64,000 nt of DNA from Parabacteroides sp. FAFU027 (GTDB lineage: Bacteria > Bacteroidota > Bacteroidia > Bacteroidales > UBA7332), in the NCBI RefSeq assembly GCF_022808675.1, contig NZ_JAKZKV010000002.1, positions 248,001 through 312,000 of the forward strand, in the 5' to 3' direction. Below the pieces are notes generated by a model. The model saw only the letters and a program-made list of their open reading frames with translations, did not search any database and had not been told where the DNA came from. Made by a program: the position numbers and the translations under genes. Positions 9,656 through 27,345 of this stretch are shown one piece after another (position 1 is the first letter of the stretch; each line of letters opens with the position of its first letter).

Positions 9656-11329
9656 TTATCTTGTTTGTATTTTAAATACGACTGCAATATTGTTCGGAAT
9701 TCTGTTTGGTTTTCGAATTACCAGCGATTCCGGATTTTGCTCCCACGATAGTTTTTCGTTGCTGCCAAGCATTTCAATATTCTTGATTTTTAATGCCCCG
9801 CCGTTTTTCGCTAGCGATTTGAGCGAAATATTTTCAGCGGGAACTCCCATCACGGTTGCATAAACCACATTCCCTTTCCGCGCGAAGCGAATATCTTTAC
9901 TGTTCAATTTAGCATTACCTTCATTGAAACCCTCTACCACCTTCGATCCGGCAGCTTCGACCGAAGGCCCTTCTCCGTACACATTCCATGGGCGTGTATC
10001 GAAAATGCTTTCTTTGTTTACATCCATCCAGGCAGCTATGCCATCGAGTATGACCACTTCTTTATCATCAATGGAGCCATCGCCCCGAACAGGAATATTC
10101 AGCAACATATTTCCGTTCTTGCTCACAATATCCACCAACATGCGGATGACGGTTGCTGCCGATTTGTAACGGTTCTGTTCGTAAAAAGCCCTGTTGTAAT
10201 GCCAGTCGCCAATGCAGGTACAGGTTTGCCAGGGGGCGGATTCTATTTTGTTGGTAGCGCCACGTTCCACATCCCAGACCAAACATTTTTTCTGTTCAGC
10301 GGTTAGTTTTTTACCAAACAAAACACCTTCGAGCTTACCTTTGTGGGTGGCCATGTTATGGTTATAAAAATGGGTGGCAAGTTTCAGCCCGGCATCGCTT
10401 ATCTGATACAGCGGCAAACCGTCGTCATCGAAATAAAGCAAATCGGGATTAAACTGGTTGATCAAATCCATTGTCCGGTTATAAAACTTTTCGCAATATT
10501 TTTGAGAGGGAATTGACGCCCCATTTTCCCAGTCCCATTGTCTTCTCCATGTTTTAGTTGCTTCATCAAATACTGGCTTCCAAATGCTTTCGATGTTGTC
10601 GTTTCCTGCACTCAACGGATGGTTTTGTTCGTAAAGTTCCTGCGGGTCAAGCCCTTCCCACCAAGTTCCCTTGCCATCGGCTTTAGTCAGTTTGCCATCA
10701 TAGGGAATACCTGCAAATTCTCCTTTTTTATCTGACCACTGAGAAGTTTCGAACCACGTCCACGTATGTGCGGCATGGACACTCAATCCAAACGGAAGCC
10801 CCTGGTTTTTAGCCGCTTTTGCCCAGCCGGCAATAATATCCTTTCCGGGGCCTACGCGCAGGGTATTCCATTCCTGATATTTGCTGTTCCACATGTCGAG
10901 GTTATCGTGGTGGTTGGCCATGGCAAAAAAGTATTGCGCCCCCACTCGTTTATATAGTGCCACAAGCTTATCGGGTTCCCAATTCTGACCTTTCCAGTTA
11001 TGAATTACATCTTTAAAACCCACTTTTGAGGGATGCCCATAATGCGTAACAAACCATTTATACTCATCGCTTCCTTCGTTATACATAAATCGGGCAAACC
11101 AATCGCCTTGCTCTGCCTGACATGCAGGCCCCCAATGCGCCCAAATCCCAAATTTGGCGTTGCGAAACCACTCCGGAACCTTGTATTGACTGAGCGATTG
11201 CCATGTCGGTTCGAATTTGCCCTTAGCAACCGGCTCGCTATCCGTTTGCACGATTATAGGCTTGTTTTCTTGTGCTTGCAGACAAAATGATGACAAAACA
11301 CAAATAATGCTCAATAATTTAGTTTTCAT
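9656..11329 (-). CDS. Alpha-L-fucosidase, GH29 family
   Basis: 557 residues from the ATG at 11329, which starts the signal peptide MKTKLLSIICVLSSFCLQAQ; a further 26 in-frame codons upstream lack signal character. GH29 hallmarks: WAHWGPACQAEQGDWFARF early, ANHHDNLDMWNS in the substrate pocket, and DLLYFDDDGLP carrying the probable nucleophile Asp. It would release terminal L-fucose from glycans in the periplasm or at the surface. It sits between a DUF1349 protein (upstream, 83 bases) and an MBL-fold hydrolase (downstream, 4 bases). No SusC/SusD pair is present, so this is not a classical PUL. Confidence 0.85.
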   Translation of the reverse strand: MKTKLLSIICVLSSFCLQAQENKPIIVQTDSEPVAKGKFEPTWQSLSQYKVPEWFRNAKFGIWAHWGPACQAEQGDWFARFMYNEGSDEYKWFVTHYGHPSKVGFKDVIHNWKGQNWEPDKLVALYKRVGAQYFFAMANHHDNLDMWNSKYQEWNTLRVGPGKDIIAGWAKAAKNQGLPFGLSVHAAHTWTWFETSQWSDKKGEFAGIPYDGKLTKADGKGTWWEGLDPQELYEQNHPLSAGNDNIESIWKPVFDEATKTWRRQWDWENGASIPSQKYCEKFYNRTMDLINQFNPDLLYFDDDGLPLYQISDAGLKLATHFYNHNMATHKGKLEGVLFGKKLTAEQKKCLVWDVERGATNKIESAPWQTCTCIGDWHYNRAFYEQNRYKSAATVIRMLVDIVSKNGNMLLNIPVRGDGSIDDKEVVILDGIAAWMDVNKESIFDTRPWNVYGEGPSVEAAGSKVVEGFNEGNAKLNSKDIRFARKGNVVYATVMGVPAENISLKSLAKNGGALKIKNIEMLGSNEKLSWEQNPESLVIRKPNRIPNNIAVVFKIQTR

Positions 11330-11412
11330 GATATCGATTCTTAGTTTTATATTACTGATTTCCAATCCATAAACCATTGTTGGCGTTTGTGATTTCATTG
11401 TCATCAAAAAGT

Positions 11413-12281: not shown

Positions 12282-12983
12282 TCACTGCATAACGAAATGC
12301 TCCAAAACCCGCTGGCTCTCTTCGCTCATAATCTTTCCGTCGAAAAGGTTGATAACGCGGTGTGCAAAGGTGGCGTCGCGGTCGGAGTGCGTAACCATTA
12401 TGATGGTAGCGCCCTCTTTGTTGAGTTCAGAGAGGAGCTTCATCACTTCGAGTCCGTTTTTCGAGTCGAGGTTACCAGTCGGTTCATCCGCCAGTATCAG
12501 TTTTGGGTTAGCCACCACGGCACGGGCAATAGCCACGCGTTGCTGCTGTCCGCCCGAGAGCTGCTGCGGAAAATGGTGCTTGCGGTGGCCAATCTTCATG
12601 CGTTCGAGAGCCGCTTCTACCTTCGCCTTGCGTTCTGCCGCCTTCATATTCAGGTAAATAAGAGGAAGTTCTACGTTTTCATAAACGTTCAGCTCGTCGA
12701 TCAAATTAAAACTCTGGAAAACGAAGCCGATATTCCCTTTGCGGATGTTTGTCCGCTGGCGCTCGCGCATGTTGGCAACCTCGGTGTTGTCGAAAAGGTA
12801 ACTGCCCGATGAGGGGTTATCCAACATGCCCAGTATGCTGAGCAGGGTCGACTTCCCGCACCCCGATGGCCCCATAATGGCCGTAAACTCGCCCTTTTTT
12901 ACGTGCAGGCTTACGTTGTCTAACGCTGTGGTTTCCACTTCTTCTGTGCGGAATACACGTGAAAGTTGATTGATTCGGATCAT
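12282..12983 (-). CDS. ABC transporter ATPase, LolD/MacB type
   Basis: 233 residues with a complete nucleotide-binding domain: Walker A GPSGCGKST (about 38-46), Q-loop GFVFQSFNLIDELNVYENV, signature LSGGQQQR (about 141-148), Walker B LILADEPTGNLD and switch His in MVTHSD. The FQSFNLI and DEPTGNLD signatures are typical of ATPases serving FtsX-type permeases. It is the last gene of the TolC / adaptor / permease / ATPase run; the 136-base gap to the permease holds only short TTAGTTACGAG direct repeats. Confidence 0.9.
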   Translation of the reverse strand: MIRINQLSRVFRTEEVETTALDNVSLHVKKGEFTAIMGPSGCGKSTLLSILGMLDNPSSGSYLFDNTEVANMRERQRTNIRKGNIGFVFQSFNLIDELNVYENVELPLIYLNMKAAERKAKVEAALERMKIGHRKHHFPQQLSGGQQQRVAIARAVVANPKLILADEPTGNLDSKNGLEVMKLLSELNKEGATIIMVTHSDRDATFAHRVINLFDGKIMSEESQRVLEHFVMQ

Positions 12984-13119: not shown

Positions 13120-15582
13120 TCACTCATAGCGGAGTGATTCAATGGGATTGCGAACTGCAATGCAGTAAGTTTGCCATCCCACGGTAAGTAAAGCAATGAA
13201 AAAGGTCAATAGGCCGGACAACACAAATACCCACCAGCTAAGTTCGGTTCTGTAAGCAAAATTCTGAAGCCAATGGTCAGTCAGAAACCATGCCACTGGG
13301 CTTGCAATGACAAATGCGATGAGTACCCATTTCACCAAATCTTTGTTTAACAAGATCATTACTTCGTCCACCCTTGCACCGTTCACTTTTCTGATGCCGA
13401 TCTCTTTGGTTCGGCTTTCGGCCGTTAGCCGAGCCATGGCAAAGAGCCCCATACAAGCAATAAAAATGGCCAGTATCGAAAAGAAGGCATACAGGTGTTG
13501 AAACTTAATGTCCTCTTCATACTGGGCATTAAAATTATCGTCCAATAAAGAGAGCAAACAGGGTTCTTGCGGATAGATCTGATTCCAGCAGTTCTTAATT
13601 TTCTGCATGGTGGTTTTCATATTTTCGGGAGATATTTTAATGCAATAATACCCCACTTCCCTGTTCCATCTCAGACTTTTGAAAAACACTATCGGCTCAA
13701 TAGCATCCTTCAACGAAAGATGGTGATAGTTGTCCACCACCCCAACGATTCGGTAAGTATTTTTTTGTATGGTAACTAATGAATTAACCGCCGATTGCGG
13801 GTTTTGAAAACCCAACTTTACACAAGCCTGTTTGTTGATAATTACTTCGTTGGCATCATAACCGGAAGCAAACGGAAAGTTTGTTCCTGCGAGCATTTTT
13901 ATCGAGAAAAAGTCAACGAAATTCTGGTCGATACTGATTAACGAGAAGTTGGCTTTTGTGCTCTCTTTGCCAATCAGGCTGACTTCGTTGCTTTTTCTTT
14001 CAAAAGCTTTTCCGGGAACCGTTTCAGCCGTAGTAAAGGCTTTAACCTCCGGAATCCGCCTCAGCTCATCCCTGAAAGAAGCCAGCTTTTCCGCACGGGC
14101 AGGTTTTTTAATCATGGTCATCGGAGAAAATGAAACCAATGTCTGATCCAGATTTATACCAAGCGACTGGTTTTGCATGAACTGCACTTGTTTAAAAATA
14201 AAACCGGTAGCGATAATCAAAAATATGGATGTCGCCAACTGGAATACCACCAGTATTTCTCTCGAAAACAGGCTTCTTCGCCCTAATATTGTTTTTTGCT
14301 TGAAGCTAATGGATGGTTGCGGTTTATAAATCTGTAAAAATGGATAAAGAGCTGAAACAAAAGCGCCAATCAATACTAATATGGCGGTTATTCCCCCTAA
14401 ATACAGAAAGCTTACCTGAGAAATGTCAAATCCGGCAACATGCAATCCGTTCTTAAACAACGAGACAACAATAGCCAAACTGATTGCTCCGGCAACGGCG
14501 TGAAGGAGCAATATTTCTATGGCATGCAGCAGCATGACATCCCTTTTTCCTGCCCCTATTACCCGCCGGATATTGTCTTTCGACGCTTGTTTCAAATAAT
14601 CGGATATCGACAGGTTCATGAAATTAAGCCACGAGATAATCATGATGAGCAATCCTATCACTAGGCAGGCCATCACCCTGAACTTGCTTCCGTTTGTCAT
14701 GATTTCTCCTTCGAGGTGCGAGTTCAGGTGAATATCGCCCACCGGCTGAAAAATCAGTTTCACCACTTCTCCGGCATCGGTTATATGCTTGATTGCCGGT
14801 TTTATGACTTGTGCATACTTCGCTTCCACATTTTTAATGTCGGCATCCGGTTTCAGGCGCATATAGGTATAGCTCCATGCACCTCCCCAGTCTCCGTTAG
14901 ACTCGCCATTTTTAATCTCCCCGATTTTGCTATCGTCCAATATGCCAGTTTCGTTGTTGAAATTATTCATGTAATAGAAAAGCGATTTCAATTGAATAAT
15001 CATATCCGCCTGTATATGGCTTTTTGGGGGGAAATCGTCGAATACGGCGCTCACAAAAAACTCCCAGCCCTCGTTAAGCTTGAATTTCTTGTTCAGCGGA
15101 TTTACGTTTCCGAAAAGCTTTTGAGCCATAGAGCGACTCAATGCAGCGCCGTGAATATCGGAGAAAATATACTTCGGGTTTTCGGATAAAATCGGACGCT
15201 GAAACACCTTGAAGAACGAAGTGTCGGAATAAAACATATTGATGTTCTGAAAGCTGTTTTCGCCGGCAAAAACAGTAATTACATCTTTCGCAATATTGGT
15301 TGTAGCCTCTATTTCGGGAAGCTGGTTGCGCAACGTTGGGCCTACCGCGCTATAATTCATGGCCGTGTTTTGGGTTATGATACCATTACCCGATTGGGAA
15401 AGTGCCACCCTGTACATCCGGTCGTGTGTCGGCCAGGACTGGTCGTAGCTCTCCTCCGACCGAATCCACGATAACAGGAATAAAAAAGCAACCATACTGA
15501 TGGTAAGCCCCGACAAATTGACAATGGCATTGACCTTATTTTTTAAGATCTTTCGAAAAACAGATTTTAGTAATATGTTCAT
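13120..15582 (-). CDS. FtsX-like ABC transporter permease (MacB type), efflux operon
   Basis: 820 residues, same two-block architecture as the 801-residue protein at 6247 but clearly diverged. It has helix one at residues about 18-40 (IVNLSGLTISMVAFLFLLSW), a periplasmic MacB domain, FtsX helices around 285-410, a second periplasmic domain, and C-terminal helices ending NPIESLRYE. It would couple to the ATPase downstream and the HlyD-type adaptor upstream in a tripartite pump that moves substrate from periplasm to exterior. Gaps are 77 bases upstream and 136 downstream. Confidence 0.88.
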   Translation of the reverse strand: MNILLKSVFRKILKNKVNAIVNLSGLTISMVAFLFLLSWIRSEESYDQSWPTHDRMYRVALSQSGNGIITQNTAMNYSAVGPTLRNQLPEIEATTNIAKDVITVFAGENSFQNINMFYSDTSFFKVFQRPILSENPKYIFSDIHGAALSRSMAQKLFGNVNPLNKKFKLNEGWEFFVSAVFDDFPPKSHIQADMIIQLKSLFYYMNNFNNETGILDDSKIGEIKNGESNGDWGGAWSYTYMRLKPDADIKNVEAKYAQVIKPAIKHITDAGEVVKLIFQPVGDIHLNSHLEGEIMTNGSKFRVMACLVIGLLIMIISWLNFMNLSISDYLKQASKDNIRRVIGAGKRDVMLLHAIEILLLHAVAGAISLAIVVSLFKNGLHVAGFDISQVSFLYLGGITAILVLIGAFVSALYPFLQIYKPQPSISFKQKTILGRRSLFSREILVVFQLATSIFLIIATGFIFKQVQFMQNQSLGINLDQTLVSFSPMTMIKKPARAEKLASFRDELRRIPEVKAFTTAETVPGKAFERKSNEVSLIGKESTKANFSLISIDQNFVDFFSIKMLAGTNFPFASGYDANEVIINKQACVKLGFQNPQSAVNSLVTIQKNTYRIVGVVDNYHHLSLKDAIEPIVFFKSLRWNREVGYYCIKISPENMKTTMQKIKNCWNQIYPQEPCLLSLLDDNFNAQYEEDIKFQHLYAFFSILAIFIACMGLFAMARLTAESRTKEIGIRKVNGARVDEVMILLNKDLVKWVLIAFVIASPVAWFLTDHWLQNFAYRTELSWWVFVLSGLLTFFIALLTVGWQTYCIAVRNPIESLRYE

Positions 15583-15659: not shown

Positions 15660-16910
15660 CTATTTTAATACCAGCTTATCATTTTTGCCAAACAGGTCGT
15701 ATCCCGAGGTGACTACTTTTTCTCCCGGACGCAAGCCTTCAAGTACCTCGTAACTGCGCGGATTTTGGCGACCTATGCGGATGTTGCGCTTTACAGCGGT
15801 TTTTCCATCGGCTGCCAGCACATAAATCCATTGTCCGCCGGTGGATTGATAAAAGCTTCCCCGGGGAATCATGATGGCTTGCTGGGTTTCGCCCAATTGC
15901 AGCCCCACATTATAACTTTGTCCGGCACGAATATTTCCCGGCAATTTTCCGGAGAAGAACAGATCGACCTCAAACCGGCCATCGCGGACTTCGGGGTATA
16001 CTTTGCCTACCTCCATCTGAAGAGTATCCGTTTCGCGGCTCACATAAGCGGTAAGCCCCTTACGGACACGGTCGATGTAATGCTCGTCGATTTTGGCCTT
16101 GATTTTAAAGGACGTAAGCACATTGATCTGGCCTATTCGTTGCCCCACCGAAATCGCTTGCCCTGGTTTGGCATTCAAAAGCGCCAACTGCCCATCTACA
16201 GGCGCCTTAACGTTAAGATTCTCCTGCCGCTGATAGATCAGTTCGAGGTTTCGCTGCATACTCGCAAGGTTCTGGCTTATTTTTTCCACCTGATTGCTGC
16301 GAAATATCGAGTCCTGAAGGTAGCGTTTCTGCATCAACTTTTCCATTTTTTGAGAAAGTTCGTAATCTTCTTTTGACCGAAGATAATCTTCGCGCGATAT
16401 AAGTTCGTCGGCATACAACGCTTTATTTTGTTCTGCCTTTCGTTTTTTTTGCTGCACATCGACATCGAGGTTAAGCAGTTCGCGTTGCAGGGTCAGTTTC
16501 TGCTGTTCCATGTTGATGCGGGTTTCGCGAAGGAAATTCGATTTCTCTGCCAGTTGGGCTTCGCTTTCGAGAATGCTCAGGTTGAGATTAATATTGGTAA
16601 GGCGCAGAATCACATCGCCTTGGCGCACCATGTTTCCCTCTTCGATACAAATCTCTTTCACCGTGCCACTTTCAATGGCATCCAGATACATATACATAAT
16701 AGGCTCGACAACTCCTACTACCTGTATATAATCCTGAAACATTCCGTTTGTAACCGGATCTATGGTAACCTTATCTTTTTCGATGCGAAAGGTGTCTGAT
16801 TTGTCGCGAAGAGCCATAAACAATATCAGGCCAATAGTCAGCAAAACCGGAATTGCGATTTTCAGATGTTTCGGTTTTATCCGGCGTTTATCTTCTATTA
16901 TTCTGTCCAT
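15660..16910 (-). CDS. HlyD/MacA-type periplasmic adaptor subunit
   Basis: 416 residues: one N-terminal membrane anchor (about 20-38), a split biotinyl-lipoyl domain (SGTVKEICIEEGNMVRQGD and NVKAPVDGQLALLNAKPG), a long alpha-helical hairpin rich in Leu/Gln/Lys between about 105 and 225, then beta-barrel and membrane-proximal domains ending in GEKVVTSGYDLFGKNDKLVL. It would bridge the inner-membrane permease and TolC. The gene starts 40 bases after the tolC stop. Confidence 0.88.
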   Translation of the reverse strand: MDRIIEDKRRIKPKHLKIAIPVLLTIGLILFMALRDKSDTFRIEKDKVTIDPVTNGMFQDYIQVVGVVEPIMYMYLDAIESGTVKEICIEEGNMVRQGDVILRLTNINLNLSILESEAQLAEKSNFLRETRINMEQQKLTLQRELLNLDVDVQQKKRKAEQNKALYADELISREDYLRSKEDYELSQKMEKLMQKRYLQDSIFRSNQVEKISQNLASMQRNLELIYQRQENLNVKAPVDGQLALLNAKPGQAISVGQRIGQINVLTSFKIKAKIDEHYIDRVRKGLTAYVSRETDTLQMEVGKVYPEVRDGRFEVDLFFSGKLPGNIRAGQSYNVGLQLGETQQAIMIPRGSFYQSTGGQWIYVLAADGKTAVKRNIRIGRQNPRSYEVLEGLRPGEKVVTSGYDLFGKNDKLVLK

Positions 16911-16950: not shown

Positions 16951-18279
16951 CTACCACGTCATCATGCTTCCCGTTTGATAAAACCGGAGGTTCGCCTGCA
17001 TGATATAAGTCTGCATCCGGGTGCGCAAAACCTCGCTCTGTGCCTTAGCCAGATTATTTTTCGACTCGTAGTATTCCATGATGTTTGCCAATCCCTTTTC
17101 CCGTTTTTTGCGTACCGCTTCAAAAGCTATTTTTTCGCTTTCGGTTTTCTTCTTTGCTGCCTGATATTCCTTTAAAGCGGCTTCGTAGTCCCGATTCGCC
17201 TGCTGTATTTCATAATTCAGTGATTTCAGTCCATCACTCAATCTGTTTTTCGCCTGTTGCAATTCTATCTTTGCGATGTGTACACTGTTTCGGCGGCTAA
17301 AACCATCAAACAGGGGAATCCGCAACGAAAGGCCATAGTTTAACCGCCTGTTGCCTTTCAGCTGCTCCGAAAATCCTGCCACATTACCGTTTTCGTTCAC
17401 AACAGATTGGTAATAACCACTGTACCAACCACCGTAAAGGCTCAGTTGGGGAGAATAGGATGCCCGCTCTATCCGCACACTCCGCCGCGCAGCCTCGTAA
17501 CGGTTGTTCAGGATTTTTATCTGCGGAAGCACATCGGCAGCGGTATTTAAGAGATTGTCGCCTGTTAATGGAAGGTCGGCCACGGCCTCTTCCGTCAAAT
17601 CGGATATATGCAAGTCCGAATCTGCCGGAAAGTTCATCAACTTTCGCAACGTAAACTCCGATTTTTGCACTGCATTCCGGCAGCGGAGCAATTGGTATTC
17701 GTCGTTTGCCAGCCGGGCTTGCACTTCGTAACGGTCGCTTCCCGCTGCCCGGCCAATTTCTGTCTTTTTCTGTACAGTTTCATACTCTTTTTTCGAGAGC
17801 TCATATTGCTCCAACTGTACTTCGGCCAGCCCCAGATTAAGCAGATGGGCTGTATATGCTTCCAAAACACTGTACATCAGCTCATTTTGCTTTTGCTTTA
17901 AAGCCTCTTGCTCCGAGCGGAGGTTAAATTGCTCAAAGGCTACACGGTTAACCTGCCTGAAACCATCGAAAAGCAGCATGCTTCCGCTCAGATACCAGTC
18001 ATTCGAAAACAGGTTATTCACAACATAAGTGTTGGTGGTTGCATCTAACGTCTTTCCATTATTAATTTCATAAGAGGAACCGGTACTAATACGGGGCAAA
18101 AAACTTTGCGTGGCATTTTGCATGGTTACGCGCTGCTTATCAACATCAAGCTTACTGTTTTGAAGCACCAAATTATGGCTCAATGCATATTCGGCACATT
18201 GGTGATAGGTGAGTGCCTCCTGCGCCCGCATCATCATTGATGTTCCACATAAAATCAATATTACAAACCAATGCTTCAT
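16951..18279 (-). CDS. TolC-family outer membrane efflux protein
   Basis: 442 residues with signal peptide (MKHWFVILILCGTSMMMRAQ). Two tandem TolC/OEP repeats: the first ends near NFPADSDLHI, the second begins near LPQIKILNNRYEAA. Long heptad-like helices and strands such as GLSLRIPLFDGFSRRNSV match the trimeric outer-membrane channel family. It is first in the efflux operon and lies about 18 bases downstream of the transcription start predicted from a sigma-54 promoter. Confidence 0.88.
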   Translation of the reverse strand: MKHWFVILILCGTSMMMRAQEALTYHQCAEYALSHNLVLQNSKLDVDKQRVTMQNATQSFLPRISTGSSYEINNGKTLDATTNTYVVNNLFSNDWYLSGSMLLFDGFRQVNRVAFEQFNLRSEQEALKQKQNELMYSVLEAYTAHLLNLGLAEVQLEQYELSKKEYETVQKKTEIGRAAGSDRYEVQARLANDEYQLLRCRNAVQKSEFTLRKLMNFPADSDLHISDLTEEAVADLPLTGDNLLNTAADVLPQIKILNNRYEAARRSVRIERASYSPQLSLYGGWYSGYYQSVVNENGNVAGFSEQLKGNRRLNYGLSLRIPLFDGFSRRNSVHIAKIELQQAKNRLSDGLKSLNYEIQQANRDYEAALKEYQAAKKKTESEKIAFEAVRKKREKGLANIMEYYESKNNLAKAQSEVLRTRMQTYIMQANLRFYQTGSMMTW

Positions 18280-18307
18280 AGATAGTTTACTATTTTATCA
18301 AATATCT

Positions 18308-18324
18308 GGCAAATGTCATGCCAA
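18308..18324 (-). promoter_or_regulatory. Sigma-54 (-24/-12) promoter for the tolC efflux operon
   Basis: Minus strand TTGGCATGACATTTGCC fits the sigma-54 consensus TGGCACG-N4-TTGC, with GG and GC exactly ten bases apart. The expected start, about 12 bases downstream (near 18297), precedes the tolC ATG (18279) by roughly 18 bases. The divergently encoded sigma-54 activator makes it biologically coherent. Confidence 0.75.
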
Positions 18325-18368
18325 AACATATATATATTTGACAAACAGCTATTTAAAAGCAGCAAGTA

Positions 18369-18428
18369 TTATTCGGTCTGTCAAAATACTTGACACCCAA
18401 TTGTCAAATATTTTGACAGACCGAATAA
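18369..18428. promoter_or_regulatory. Paired upstream activator dyads for the sigma-54 activator
   Basis: A near-perfect inverted repeat with 27-base arms, one mismatch and a 6-base centre. Each arm contains a 17-base dyad: TGTCAAAATACTTGACA (18379-18395) and TGTCAAATATTTTGACA (18403-18419), i.e. TGTCAA-N5-TTGACA twice, 24 bases centre to centre. They lie about 90 and 114 bases upstream of the predicted tolC start, the usual place for enhancer-binding-protein sites. Confidence 0.7.
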
Positions 18429-18490
18429 CAAATCAAAAAATTTCATAGCTTTGAATTGTCATACATTGCTAAGATTGTTCGAGGACAAAA

Positions 18491-18556
18491 GGTGCAGCGC
18501 ACCCAAAATATTTGTAGAATAATTAATCGCAAGAAGACGTTAAGGTGCAGCGCACC
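18491..18556 (+). repeat. Paired GGTGCAGCGCACC palindromes in the activator leader
   Basis: The 13-base palindrome GGTGCAGCGCACC occurs twice (18491-18503 and 18544-18556), 53 bases apart, just before the activator start. The sequence following the first copy is CAAAATATTTGTAGAATAA. It could be a transcript structure or a small repeat insertion; no function is evident. Confidence 0.6.
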
Positions 18557-18577
18557 GATGATATAACAAAAAAAACT

Positions 18578-19936
18578 ATGAATCCCGGAAAAATCCTTGT
18601 TGTCGATGACAATAAAAGTGCGTTAAGCGCGCTCAATATGCTATTGCAATTCGAGTTCAAGACGGTAGTTACCCTCTCGTCGCCCAACCAGATTGTGGCG
18701 GAGATGCAGAAAACCGATTTCGACATCGTATTGCTCGACATGAATTTTAAGTCCGGGATAAATACCGGAAACGAAGGGATTTACTGGCTCGATAACATTA
18801 AAAAAGCTTATCCCGATGTAGAAGTAATTATGATTACAGCCTATGGTGAGGTAGAGCTGGCCGTAAAAGCGATTAAACACGGCGCAACCGATTTTATATT
18901 AAAACCTTGGGAAAACGAAAAGCTGCTGGCGACATTGCATTCGGCCATGCGCCTGCGCTCTTCGGGCAAAGAAATCGCAACATTGAAACAGCGCGAGCAG
19001 AGCCTTAAGAATGAATTGAATCCAGAACCGTGCGAACTCTTATGCTCCTCGCCGGTCATGCAACAAGTGTTGCGAACCATCGACAAGGTGGCCCGCACCG
19101 ACGCCAACGTGCTGATAACCGGAGAGAACGGCACCGGGAAAGAGGTGATTGCCCGGGAGATACATTTACGATCTAACCGCAGTAAAGAGCTGATGGTGAC
19201 GGTGGACATGGGAGCCGTTCACGAACACCTGTTCGAAAGCGAGCTCTTCGGCCATAAAAAAGGGGCTTTTACCGATGCCCGGGACGACCGCACCGGAAAA
19301 TTCGTATTGGCCAATCGCGGAACGCTTTTCCTCGATGAGATTGCAAACCTGCCCCTGCCTTCGCAGTCCAAACTGCTGGTCGCGCTGCAAAACCGGGCGA
19401 TTGTTCCACTTGGCGCCAATCAGCCTGTCCCAATAGACATTCGCCTGATTACGGCCACCAATGCCAATCTCGACGCTTTGGTCGAAAAACAGTTGTTTCG
19501 TCAGGATTTGCTTTACCGCATCAATACCATCCGCATCGAGGTGCCGCCCTTGCGCGAACGGGGTGACGACATCGAGCTGCTGGCCGGCTTCTTCCTCAAA
19601 CGGTTTGCGAAGAAATACCAAAAGCCAAACCTGCGGCTCAACCCGCAGATCATCCGAAAACTGATGAAGTACCCGTGGCCGGGAAACGTACGCGAACTCC
19701 AGCACACCATCGAAAAGGCGGTCATTCTTTGCGAAGGCGAAAATCTGTCTCCCGACGATTTCAACCTTCGCTGCCCGGTCGGCACCTCATCGGCTCCCCT
19801 TACGCTCGAAGCTTTGGAGCGGCAACTGATTGAAGCGGCCATGGATCGGCATAATGGAAATCTGTCGGCCGCAGCCTCCGAACTGGGCATTTCGCGTCAA
19901 ACGCTTTACAATAAAATAAGCCGCTATGGACATTAA
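18578..19936 (+). CDS. Sigma-54-dependent response regulator (NtrC type)
   Basis: 452 residues from the ATG at 18578 (MNPGKILVVDD, where the receiver begins); an upstream GTG at 18545 lies inside a palindrome and is less likely. Domains: receiver 1-125 with phosphoacceptor Asp54 (VLLDMNF) and KPWEN; AAA+ domain 150-375 with Walker A GENGTGKE, sigma-54 contact loop GAFTDA (229-234), Walker B GTLFLDEI and WPGNVREL; Fis-type helix-turn-helix at the C-terminus (AAASELGISRQTLYNKI). It should activate the divergent tolC operon through the TGTCAA-N5-TTGACA sites. Its 3' end overlaps the kinase gene by 11 bases, so the pair is translationally coupled. Confidence 0.92.
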   Translation: MNPGKILVVDDNKSALSALNMLLQFEFKTVVTLSSPNQIVAEMQKTDFDIVLLDMNFKSGINTGNEGIYWLDNIKKAYPDVEVIMITAYGEVELAVKAIKHGATDFILKPWENEKLLATLHSAMRLRSSGKEIATLKQREQSLKNELNPEPCELLCSSPVMQQVLRTIDKVARTDANVLITGENGTGKEVIAREIHLRSNRSKELMVTVDMGAVHEHLFESELFGHKKGAFTDARDDRTGKFVLANRGTLFLDEIANLPLPSQSKLLVALQNRAIVPLGANQPVPIDIRLITATNANLDALVEKQLFRQDLLYRINTIRIEVPPLRERGDDIELLAGFFLKRFAKKYQKPNLRLNPQIIRKLMKYPWPGNVRELQHTIEKAVILCEGENLSPDDFNLRCPVGTSSAPLTLEALERQLIEAAMDRHNGNLSAAASELGISRQTLYNKISRYGH

Positions 19937-21272
19937 AGCATTCAACCTCAATATCGTCCTGCGCATCACTTTTGTGGCTCTGCTCGCGGCAGGATTAATC
20001 CTTTCCGTTTTTTACAAGCAGGTTTTTGCTGCGGTTATCTGCGCGCTGCTTCTGCTGTGGACGGTTTTCAGCCTGGTTTATTATATAAATGGAGTAAACC
20101 GCAAATTGGCCTATTTCTTCGATGCCATCCGAAACGAAGACTCCACGCTGAAGTTTCCCGAAACCATCCGCAATAAAGCCATCAACGACCTGCACCGGAG
20201 CCTCAATCGCATCAACAGCTACATCGCCGGTATAAAGCTAAAAAACGAAGAGAACGAGCGCTTCCTCAACGAACTGATGCAAAGTTCGGCCACGGGGCTG
20301 ATGGCGATTGACGAGAAAGGCTATGTGGAACAGATTAATCAGGCGGCGCTGATGATCATCGGATTGCCACATCTGGTGCATATCGACCTGCTCCGTCAAA
20401 AAAACGAACCTCTGTTTAACGTTATCGTACAACTCTCTTCCGGAAAAACCCAAATCCTCAAACTCGCCGATAATAACGGGATCCGCCAGATTTCGATCAA
20501 AGCGGCGCAGTTGCGATTTGCCGAACGCCAATACCGCATATTTTCGATGACCGACATCCGCACAGAGCTGGAGGAAAACGAACTCGATACGTGGCAAAAA
20601 CTCATCAGCGTGCTCACCCACGAGATGATGAACTCGCTGGCTCCCATCACCTCACTGAGCAATACGCTCGGCCGTTTTTTTATCCGCGAAGGGAAAACGG
20701 TCACTCCCGAAGGGCTCACTTCGAAGGATATTGAACAAACCATACACGGACTCTCTGTGATTGAAGAACGCGGCAAAGGGCTGCTGCATTTTGTGGATAA
20801 TTACCGGAAACTGACCCGTATTCCACGTCCGGTTTTTACCCCGATAAATATTGATGGTTGGTTTCACCGTATGACCATGCTGATGAGGCCCCGGCTGGAA
20901 GATGGAAAGATTAACTTCAGCATTCAACGCGCCGAGCAGCTTGTCGATTTCCCCGGCGACGAGAAGCTTCTTTCGCAGGTACTTATAAACCTTTTCAACA
21001 ATGCAATAGATGCCCTCGGCGAAACGTCGGATCGTCGAATTGTATTACATACCACCATTAATCCGCAGGGTAAATTCTGCATTCACCTTACGGATAACGG
21101 CCCGGGCATCAGTCCCGACAATCTTGATAAGATTTTCGTACCCTTCTTCACCACAAAAGAAAACGGGTCGGGCATAGGGCTGAGCCTTTCGCGCCAGGTT
21201 ATGCATTTGCACGGCGGTTTCATTACTGCGCATTCTACTTCTGATAAAACTACCTTTACATTAACCTTTTGA
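19926..21272 (+). CDS. Sensor histidine kinase, NtrB-like partner of the sigma-54 regulator
   Basis: 448 residues. Two membrane helices (about 11-29 and 33-53) have almost no periplasmic loop, then a HAMP-like linker, a PAS-like domain (about 110-215), an H-box with His232 (LTHEMMNSLAP) and a HATPase domain with NLFNNAIDAL, DNGPGIS and GSGIGLSLSRQ. The missing sensory loop suggests it senses the membrane or cytoplasm (inference), as do many envelope-stress kinases. Confidence 0.9.
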   Translation: MDIKAFNLNIVLRITFVALLAAGLILSVFYKQVFAAVICALLLLWTVFSLVYYINGVNRKLAYFFDAIRNEDSTLKFPETIRNKAINDLHRSLNRINSYIAGIKLKNEENERFLNELMQSSATGLMAIDEKGYVEQINQAALMIIGLPHLVHIDLLRQKNEPLFNVIVQLSSGKTQILKLADNNGIRQISIKAAQLRFAERQYRIFSMTDIRTELEENELDTWQKLISVLTHEMMNSLAPITSLSNTLGRFFIREGKTVTPEGLTSKDIEQTIHGLSVIEERGKGLLHFVDNYRKLTRIPRPVFTPINIDGWFHRMTMLMRPRLEDGKINFSIQRAEQLVDFPGDEKLLSQVLINLFNNAIDALGETSDRRIVLHTTINPQGKFCIHLTDNGPGISPDNLDKIFVPFFTTKENGSGIGLSLSRQVMHLHGGFITAHSTSDKTTFTLTF

Positions 21273-22010: not shown

Positions 22011-23036
22011 ATGAAACGTAAAGCAATTATCTATCTCCATCTTTTCACATGGCTTTTTGCGGCTTTTATCAATATAAACAACTTCAATCAACTGGCAAAG
22101 CCGGAAATGTTGTTGTCTTATGTAATCAGTTTGCTGTTTCTGTCCATAGGGTTTTACCTGTTCTATTTTTTTATTGTACCGGCATTTCTTCTGAAAAAGA
22201 AATTTACCGATTTTTTTATCCTGGCGGCATTGGCTGTACTTATCCTTCCTTTTTTCGGATATACGGCTTTGCTGCTTAACAAAGCCATATTTAATAGATC
22301 GTTCGAAAATTTCTACGACATCTATTCATTAAAGATGCATCTCAGTGGAACTGTCGCCATGATTTTTTCGGCTTCGTTCGGATCTTTTTTCAGGGTTATC
22401 ATCAATTGGTTTGATGCTTTAAACCATAAAGAAATGCTGGAAAAACAAAATCTGGAAAGTGAACTGGCCCTGCTCAAAAGCAAGGTCAATCCTCACTTTC
22501 TGTTCAATACCATCAATAATATCGATGTGCTGATTTATCAGGATCCTGACAAAGCCTCCAATGCGCTCCTTAAATTGTCCGAGATTATGCGCTATATGTC
22601 TTATGAAACGGTATCGGAATATATTGATCTTTCTAAGGAGATCGGCTATATAGAAAATCTGGTCGAACTTTACCGGCTAAGGATAAAGGATCCGCAACTG
22701 ATAAAGCTTGATATGCAGGGTGACACTTCAAACCTGAAAATAGCACCTGCTATCTTTATTCCATTTATCGAAAATGCCTTTAAATATTCCACCTTTCAGG
22801 GGCCAAATTCCGGTTTCACCATTCGTTTTAAGACAATAGGGAATTGGGTACATTTCGTCATCACCAACTATTTCGAAGAAAAAACGGTCGTGCAAAAATC
22901 CCAACAAGGAGGTACTGGTATCATGAATGTAAAGCGACGCCTTGCTATCATCTACCCAGACAGGCATTTGCTGAAAATCACTGAATCACAAGGCCAATTT
23001 ATGGTTGAACTCAATATCGATACCCATGCCAATTAA
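22011..23036 (+). CDS. LytS/YehU-type sensor histidine kinase
   Basis: 341 residues. Four membrane helices lie in the first 135 residues, then a helical linker and the His_kinase domain (PF06580 type) with His162 in NPHFLFNTINNID. The ATP-binding lid is atypical, as usual for the family (PAIFIPFIENAFKYS, GGTGIMNVKRRL). It reads straight into the LytTR regulator (11-base overlap), forming a two-gene unit. The signal is unknown; homologues sense small metabolites or envelope state. Confidence 0.88.
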   Translation: MKRKAIIYLHLFTWLFAAFININNFNQLAKPEMLLSYVISLLFLSIGFYLFYFFIVPAFLLKKKFTDFFILAALAVLILPFFGYTALLLNKAIFNRSFENFYDIYSLKMHLSGTVAMIFSASFGSFFRVIINWFDALNHKEMLEKQNLESELALLKSKVNPHFLFNTINNIDVLIYQDPDKASNALLKLSEIMRYMSYETVSEYIDLSKEIGYIENLVELYRLRIKDPQLIKLDMQGDTSNLKIAPAIFIPFIENAFKYSTFQGPNSGFTIRFKTIGNWVHFVITNYFEEKTVVQKSQQGGTGIMNVKRRLAIIYPDRHLLKITESQGQFMVELNIDTHAN

Positions 23037-23748
23037 ATGTATTGCCATTGACGACGAACCCCTTGCTCTTGCCAAAGTAAGGATGTTTGTGGAAAAAACC
23101 CCAGGTTTGCAATTGTTGCAAACGTTTGACAATGCGTTGGATGCTATGTTTTTCATTAAACAAAATGTCGTGGATTTAATATTCCTCGACATTCAGATGG
23201 AACAGCTTACCGGCATCCAGTTCCTCGAAGCCATTAACCTTGAAGCTCAGGTTATCATTACTTCTGCTTACGAAGAATTTGCGTTGAAAGGATTCGATCT
23301 TAATGTGACTGACTACCTGCTTAAGCCCTATTCGTTCGAACGTTTTGTTCAGGCTGTTGATAAAGTGCTGGGAAAATCCCGCTCAAAAGTGGCCGAACCT
23401 GTATCGACTTCTCAGGAGTGTATCTTTATCAAAACAGAGTATCGGCTGGAACGGGTTGATCTGAGTGATATTATCTATATTGAAGGGATGAAAGATTACC
23501 TGCAGATCGTAACAGATTCGCGTAAAATCATGACTTTGCAAAGCTTTAAAAATATGGAAGAAATGCTTCCATCGTCGAGATTTCAACGCATACACAAGTC
23601 TTTTCTGATAGCCATCAATAAAATTGAAAGTATTGAGCATAACCGGGTGAAAATTAACAACCGGCTACTTCCCATAAGCCAGACCTATAGAAGCTCATTT
23701 CTCAAAACCATTGAGAATAAATTACCGCCAAAGTATAATCCGGAATAA
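23026..23748 (+). CDS. LytTR-family response regulator
   Basis: 240 residues from the ATG at 23026 (MPIKCIAIDDEP), chosen because the receiver starts there; it overlaps the kinase stop, favouring coupling. The receiver carries Asp55 (LIFLDIQM), Ser/Thr in ITSAYEE and LKPYSFERF. A LytTR DNA-binding domain spans about 130-235 (DIIYIEGMKDYLQIV, FQRIHKSFLIAINKI). No direct-repeat target could be assigned in the window, so its regulon is unknown. Confidence 0.9.
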   Translation: MPIKCIAIDDEPLALAKVRMFVEKTPGLQLLQTFDNALDAMFFIKQNVVDLIFLDIQMEQLTGIQFLEAINLEAQVIITSAYEEFALKGFDLNVTDYLLKPYSFERFVQAVDKVLGKSRSKVAEPVSTSQECIFIKTEYRLERVDLSDIIYIEGMKDYLQIVTDSRKIMTLQSFKNMEEMLPSSRFQRIHKSFLIAINKIESIEHNRVKINNRLLPISQTYRSSFLKTIENKLPPKYNPE

Positions 23749-26598: not shown

Positions 26599-27345
26599 TG
26601 TCCCTCCGGATATACCGTATAAAATTGCGGAACCGTCGGTGGGATTTGCAATCCCACCTCTTAAATACTATCAGGATTTGTTATCCGACAATCAACTAAA
26701 CCACCATCACTTTCAGCAATCCCGGACTTCCCGCATAATCAATCGCCGAGCTATACCGGTAATCTTCGGGGCGATTAACCAGTTCAGCCGTAACGGGATT
26801 ATTGTGGATATAATTCAGCTTCTGATCAAAGTAATCTACCAGAAATATCTCCTGATGATCATTCCCTTCCTGCCAGAATCGATAGTTCTTGATCTTCTTA
26901 TCGTTACGACCGGAATATTCGAAGCGATTAAGCATCCACTCACGACGACTTTCCTGCGAATCCGTCTGCAAGGTACGAAGAATCTCCTTACTCGTAAACT
27001 TCTTGAAATCCCGCATAATATCCGATACCTTGTCATCGCCTTCCGAGCCTACAATCATGTGCAAATGATTCGACATCAACACCCATGCATAAATGATCAA
27101 TCCCTTTTCAGTCTGGCAATATCGTAATGAATCCATGATGATATGCTTGTATCTTGGTCTGGTGAATATATCTACCCAGTCCACTACCGTGTCGGTAGTA
27201 AACCAGACTTCTCCGGTGATTCTGTTGGCTATGTTCATTGGTATTTCTTTTTCAGATTATAAATCTTCATAGTATAAAGAAGGTGGGATTGCAAATCCCA
27301 CCAACGGTTCCGCAACTTTCTGCGGCTTCATATCCGGTGGGACGG
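26599..27345 (-). mobile_element. RAYT/REP element (transposase bracketed by inverted palindromic ends)
   Basis: About 747 bases. The left end (26599-26658) reads TCCCTCCGGATATACCG, AATTGCGGAACCGT, then a hairpin with stem GGTGGGATT and loop TGC (26638-26658). The right end (27282-27345) is the same set in inverted orientation, with hairpin 27282-27302 and terminal ATATCCGGTGGGACGGG. Inside is one transposase gene. Each end also has a smaller stem CCGCA/TGCGG, or CCGTA/TGCGG with a wobble pair. This layout matches REP-associated tyrosine transposons. Confidence 0.8.
26696..27238 (-). CDS. REP-associated tyrosine transposase (RAYT, Y1/HUH family)
   Basis: 180 residues. The HUH metal motif is HLH in MSNHLHMIVG; the usual MRDFKKFTSKEI helix follows. 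The candidate catalytic Tyr is in LNYIHNNPV, and the family tail PEDYRYSSA follows it. RAYTs are single-copy, domesticated relatives of IS200/IS605 transposases that nick and join single-stranded REP hairpins. Stop and start lie only 37 and 43 bases from the flanking palindromes. All motifs are intact, so the enzyme may be active. Confidence 0.88.
   Translation of the reverse strand: MNIANRITGEVWFTTDTVVDWVDIFTRPRYKHIIMDSLRYCQTEKGLIIYAWVLMSNHLHMIVGSEGDDKVSDIMRDFKKFTSKEILRTLQTDSQESRREWMLNRFEYSGRNDKKIKNYRFWQEGNDHQEIFLVDYFDQKLNYIHNNPVTAELVNRPEDYRYSSAIDYAGSPGLLKVMVV

Follow-up and report, generated by a model that had tools for sequence, protein, structure and literature searches.

The locus studied here, in Parabacteroides sp. 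FAFU027, sets the operon of an ABC efflux pump back to back with the gene of a two-component response regulator, and it raises the question of how the pump is switched on. We analysed a window of 64,000 nucleotides (the whole stretch of DNA under study) together with related genomes. An earlier note, made from the letters of the window, had proposed that the intergenic DNA holds a sigma-54 promoter and two enhancer dyads. The features of the locus are as follows.

12282-12983, minus strand: ABC ATPase, MacB/LolD/DarD-like, below equivalog cut-offs
13120-15582, minus strand: MacB_PCD/FtsX permease with duplicated FtsX, ADOP/DarB-like, below cut-off
15660-16910, minus strand: HlyD-type periplasmic adaptor; nearest NCBIfam model is the darobactin exporter DarC, below cut-off
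16951-18279, minus strand: tolC-like outer-membrane efflux protein (OEP, PF02321)
18297, minus strand: putative transcription start of the efflux operon, placed by the -12 to +1 distance
18308-18324, minus strand: predicted sigma-54 -24/-12 promoter TTGGCATGACATTTGCC, facing tolC, from sequence and conservation in relatives
18369-18428, unstranded: inverted repeat enclosing both dyads, arms 18369-18395 and 18402-18428
18379-18395, unstranded: promoter-proximal dyad TGTCAAAATACTTGACA, predicted regulator-binding site, centre near -90, conserved in orthologous loci
18402-18418, unstranded: promoter-distal dyad TGTCAAATATTTTGACA, predicted regulator-binding site, centre near -113, conserved in orthologous loci
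18578-19936, plus strand: NtrC-type response regulator (receiver, sigma-54 AAA+, Fis-type HTH)
19926-21272, plus strand: histidine kinase, its gene overlapping that of the regulator; H-box HEMMNSLAPI (HEIMNSIAPI-type)

Genes and predicted promoter of the locus

Channel, adaptor, FtsX-type permease and ABC ATPase lie in one operon, the gene set of a tripartite ABC efflux pump. On the other side, all three regulator domains (PF00072, PF00158 and PF02954) score above their cut-offs, and the recognition helix reads SRQTLYNKI. The sigma-54 contact loop is GAFTDA instead of the classical GAFTGA, with G(A/S)FTDA in most relatives; GAFTDA is listed among tolerated variants and considered active (PMC4641369). 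By hydropathy, the N-terminal part of the kinase contains two hydrophobic segments with hardly any extracytoplasmic loop between them, a topology that points to signal perception within or at the membrane. The genome encodes four strong sigma-54 activator domains, and rpoN is present. The rpoN gene falls within at least 19.9 kb that are identical on two contigs (G000 C1:676000-695900 and C7:21200-41100; L186 and L187), which is probably redundant assembly and not a true second rpoN.

Several further genes were observed around the module. A second two-component pair, a His_kinase-family sensor with a LytTR response regulator, sits just downstream of the kinase at 22011-23748. Downstream of the efflux operon, an alpha-L-fucosidase gene (9656-11407) adjoins a DUF1349 protein, and a Y1-type (IS200-like) transposase of the REP-element-associated kind is encoded at 26696-27238.

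The minus strand from 18324 to 18308 reads TTGGCATGACATTTGCC, with the GG and GC dinucleotides separated by exactly 10 bases and the form TGGCAY...TTGC. The ATG of tolC lies at 18279, and the signal-peptide-like MKHWFVILILCG follows it. If initiation occurs about 12 nt beyond the -12 element, transcription would begin near 18297, which leaves 18 nt before this ATG. The search string given in the earlier note, TGGCA-N7-TTGC, needs one correction, since the spacer is N6 (TGGCA-N6-TTGC). Taken alone, the -24/-12 consensus is weak evidence and is not diagnostic: TTGGCA-N6-TTGC has 23 exact matches in the genome against 14 for the reversed control, and with at most one mismatch the pattern occurs 7 times in the window against 6 expected.

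Relatives retain TGGCA and the T-N-G of the site, while the last base varies. Across loci the second base of the -12 element may be C, T, A or G, so some of these promoters are non-canonical, and the invariance of GG and of the -12 G is partly circular because the scorer weights precisely those bases. In the mostly Cytophagales loci L112-L143, we observed a near-invariant tandem TTGGCA-N6-TTGGC(A/T) at -24/-12, with an unusual -12 element (GG-N10-GG, then C).

Paired dyads and their conservation

Upstream of the promoter, two 17-bp dyads are placed 23 bp apart with a 6-bp gap between them. Together they lie in an inverted repeat whose 27-nt arms are 96% complementary around a 6-nt loop. The earlier note had described dyads of the form TGTCAA-N5-TTGACA at about -90 and -114, a near-perfect inverted repeat made by both, a minus-strand -24/-12 fit with 10-base GG-GC spacing, and a sigma-54 activator with its kinase as the next genes. 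All of these descriptions hold, with the distal centre nearer to -113 and the regulator and kinase identified as REC-AAA(sigma-54)-Fis-HTH and histidine kinase.

Within the 4.9-Mb genome, TGTCAA-N5-TTGACA occurs in just these two places. A genome search for dyad-6-dyad with TGGCA 40-70 bp away returned a single match, this locus. Since both the dyad and the dyad-plus-promoter layout are unique in the genome, the combination of elements is not due to chance, though any one element alone could be. The extended 27-nt arms are peculiar to this genome: they found no match in the two nearest relatives (G002 and G066), so the long arms are not the functional unit. In the stretch that separates the far dyad from the start of the regulator gene, we also observed two copies of AAGGTGCAGCGCACC, an inverted repeat GGTGC-N3-GCACC, at 18489-18511 and 18542-18564, 53 bp apart. 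A 15-mer of this repeat has no other occurrence in the genome and is absent from both relatives; the copies are possibly sites of a second regulator or a local duplication.

To what extent is the layout shared? Of 99 related genomes, 51 contain a regulator homolog, as do 80 named GTDB loci, nearly all of them labelled Bacteroidota. In nearly all of the 80, the regulator is divergent from an FtsX/ABC/HlyD/TolC cluster, and most contain the same pump parts. Alignment with the two nearest relatives shows that the dyads, the 6-bp gap and TGGCA survive amid intergenic DNA that has mostly diverged. A dyad pair stands upstream of an efflux-facing -24/-12 site in 66 loci, the window included; these are not 66 independent cases, because they are related by descent. 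Many loci come from metagenome-assembled genomes, and about 15 of the 81 either departed from the layout or were cut too short for testing. When a strict pair-plus-promoter expression was run over the whole of the 80 GTDB loci (about 4-13 kb each, both strands), it fired only in the regulator/efflux intergenic region and always on the efflux-facing strand. The best dyad pair scored at least 10/12 in 43 of 74 promoter-anchored sequences, compared with 2.4% of shuffled upstream sequences. The core common to these loci is TGT-N11-ACA, which takes the place of the 6-5-6 dyad as the general motif; TGTCAA-N5-TTGACA is its lineage-specific form.

The earlier note had also offered the sites as a searchable regulon motif. 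This idea needs revision: the motif is a pair of TGT-N11-ACA dyads, its exact form is confined to a lineage, and in this genome it finds only this operon. We rejected a wide regulon, since neither the exact dyads nor the complete layout recurs elsewhere in the genome. Over 395 genomes of the class, the combined pattern matched in 14, and most of these matches seem unlike the module, so the exact motif does not serve as a class-wide regulon marker. The dyad motif appears to mark a dedicated local switch and not a wide regulon.

Spacing, recognition helices and alternative readings

The distance from the near dyad to the TGG of the promoter is 52-55 bp in 61 of the 66 loci, 63 bp in three (L122, L133 and L138) and 43 bp in two (L135 and L137). 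The exceptional spacings thus differ from the main class by about one helical turn, longer or shorter. On the regulator tree the spacing class needs two changes, and the phasing claim therefore rests on two events and not on five loci. We also scored palindromicity with the promoter as the only anchor. The first group of loci peaked at -62 and -84/-85 from the -24 element (z of 6.8 and 5.5) and the second, mostly Cytophagales, at -60.5 and -80.5 (z of 6.9 and 6.6), and these peaks coincide with the two dyad centres.

The type of dyad goes with the recognition helix of the adjoining regulator. Regulators with RQTLYNK, RPTLY or RTTLYKK adjoin dyads of the type TGT-N11-ACA (half-sites such as TGTCAA, TGTAAA and TGTACA), and those with RSSLYRRL adjoin TGTCCG-N4-CGGACA or GTTCACATGTGAAC, a second type that was defined post hoc, after inspection of the data. 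Dyad type changes once on the regulator tree, so descent and specificity are statistically inseparable in this split. Paralogous modules within one genome carry their own, different upstream dyads, as read by eye. Four genomes (G009, G016, G082 and G084; loci L164-L177) hold three or four paralogous regulator/efflux modules each, which differ in recognition helices and in dyads. The simplest reading would be that each regulator recognises the dyads that adjoin it.

Taken with the gene content and the presence of rpoN, the conserved spacing and the helix-dyad pairing support the earlier reading of these sites as a sigma-54 enhancer switch for the pump. We consider it highly probable that the intergenic DNA serves as a dedicated sigma-54 switch of the efflux operon, worked by the neighbouring NtrC-type regulator through the two dyads. 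In such a switch, the adjacent kinase would phosphorylate the regulator, which would then sit on the TGT-N11-ACA dyads as a pair of dimers spaced by 23 bp. An AAA+ ring could assemble there and, across a short loop of near-fixed length, remodel the sigma-54 RNA polymerase waiting at -24/-12, so that tolC-hlyD-ftsX-abc would be turned on. The signal might be envelope or antimicrobial-peptide stress, perceived through the membrane segment of the kinase; envelope-active compounds are a reasonable guess because the pump belongs to the antimicrobial-peptide/macrolide class.

The dyads might instead serve mainly as an operator for the regulator's own gene, by autorepression or autoactivation, with the efflux promoter driven by other means. 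The far dyad is just 24-70 bp from the regulator start codon in many loci, where a bound protein could occlude a promoter, and such autoregulation may coexist with a sigma-54 switch. As the main function, however, we find it improbable, because the distance on this side varies between 24 and 328 bp among the 42 loci with the first type of dyad, compared with the near-constant distance to the efflux -24/-12. In the window, extra sequence has pushed the regulator gene away and left the efflux side unchanged, and no regulator-facing -24/-12 site was found upstream of the first homolog set.

Still less probable is that the -24/-12 match arose by chance, with a housekeeping Bacteroidota promoter in use and the dyads bound by a different repressor or activator. 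This would agree with a consensus that barely exceeds its controls, but it does not account for TGGCA...TTG at fixed spacing in divergent species whose surroundings change, or for a dyad class that tracks the recognition helix of an adjacent sigma-54 activator. Least probable of all, and very remote, is that the inverted repeat forms an RNA hairpin (a bidirectional terminator) or a mobile, REP-like palindrome: its long, highly complementary arms and short loop would suit one, yet it precedes both divergent genes, a position in which a terminator is not needed, its dyads occur nowhere else in the genome, relatives retain the two dyads and the gap without the extended arms, and the two dyads of most loci do not complement each other.

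The sigma-54 switch may also be one member of something larger. We regard the chances as evenly balanced that a large family of such efflux switches, each complete in itself, exists in Bacteroidota, with every pump operon divergent from a dedicated NtrC-type regulator and membrane-embedded kinase. In this family, private dyads that covary with the recognition helix would insulate paralogous pumps from one another, and the enhancer distance would be rigid and helically phased rather than distance-tolerant. Bacteroidota dominate gut and many marine communities, and little appears to be known of how sigma-54 activators choose their targets in this phylum. From this locus one can predict how ABC efflux pumps of a large family are switched on, and it supplies a motif, a spacing rule and a pairing of helix with dyad. 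The near-fixed distance, with its rare one-turn shifts, provides a natural test case for whether precise phasing is required by short bacterial enhancers.

Comparison with known systems

Paired enhancers with a sigma-54 promoter are a textbook arrangement. Like activators of the NtrC, ZraR and AtoC types, the window regulator combines REC, AAA+ and Fis HTH domains with two adjacent dyads about 90-115 bp upstream and a -24/-12 promoter. AtoC, ZraR and NtrC are among its NCBIfam matches, all with equivalog scores far below cut-off. It differs from these types in its tripartite ABC efflux target, its GAFTDA loop and a dyad-promoter distance that is nearly invariant phylum-wide.

The pump shares TolC, HlyD, MacB/FtsX permease and ABC ATPase with MacAB-TolC and DarBCD. 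Its best NCBIfam models are DarC, DarB (after ADOP) and DarD, each below the equivalog cut-off (181 of 450, 108 of 700 and 281 of 375 bits, respectively), and unlike in MacB, its permease and ATPase are separate proteins. In the Bce-type detoxification modules of Firmicutes, an FtsX-type exporter is accompanied by a two-component system, and the kinase of that system has two membrane segments with next to no loop. The window kinase and FtsX exporter seem to resemble such a module, and the kinase topology agrees by hydropathy; in contrast to it, the regulator here is a sigma-54 activator and the pump is tripartite with TolC.

In the open-licence literature, no enhancer motif or spacing reported for this regulator/pump family came to light, and we found nothing relevant on Bacteroidota intramembrane kinases with ABC transporters or on helical phasing at sigma-54 enhancers in Bacteroidota. 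A close precedent is a 2025 study (PMC12316311) that predicted sigma-54 control of COG0577, an ABC antimicrobial-peptide permease, in Bacteroidia and presents this as the first evidence linking sigma-54 to this kind of ABC system. Phylum, permease class and a predicted sigma-54 promoter are shared with the window. In that study, promoters were predicted by matrices and a GAFTGA loop was required for calling activators, which would exclude the GAFTDA regulator described here; we found in it no analysis of enhancer sites, spacing or activator pairing. In conclusion, the paired-enhancer mechanism is of a known kind, and what is new is a geometry that stays fixed phylum-wide, together with the pairing of recognition helix with dyad.
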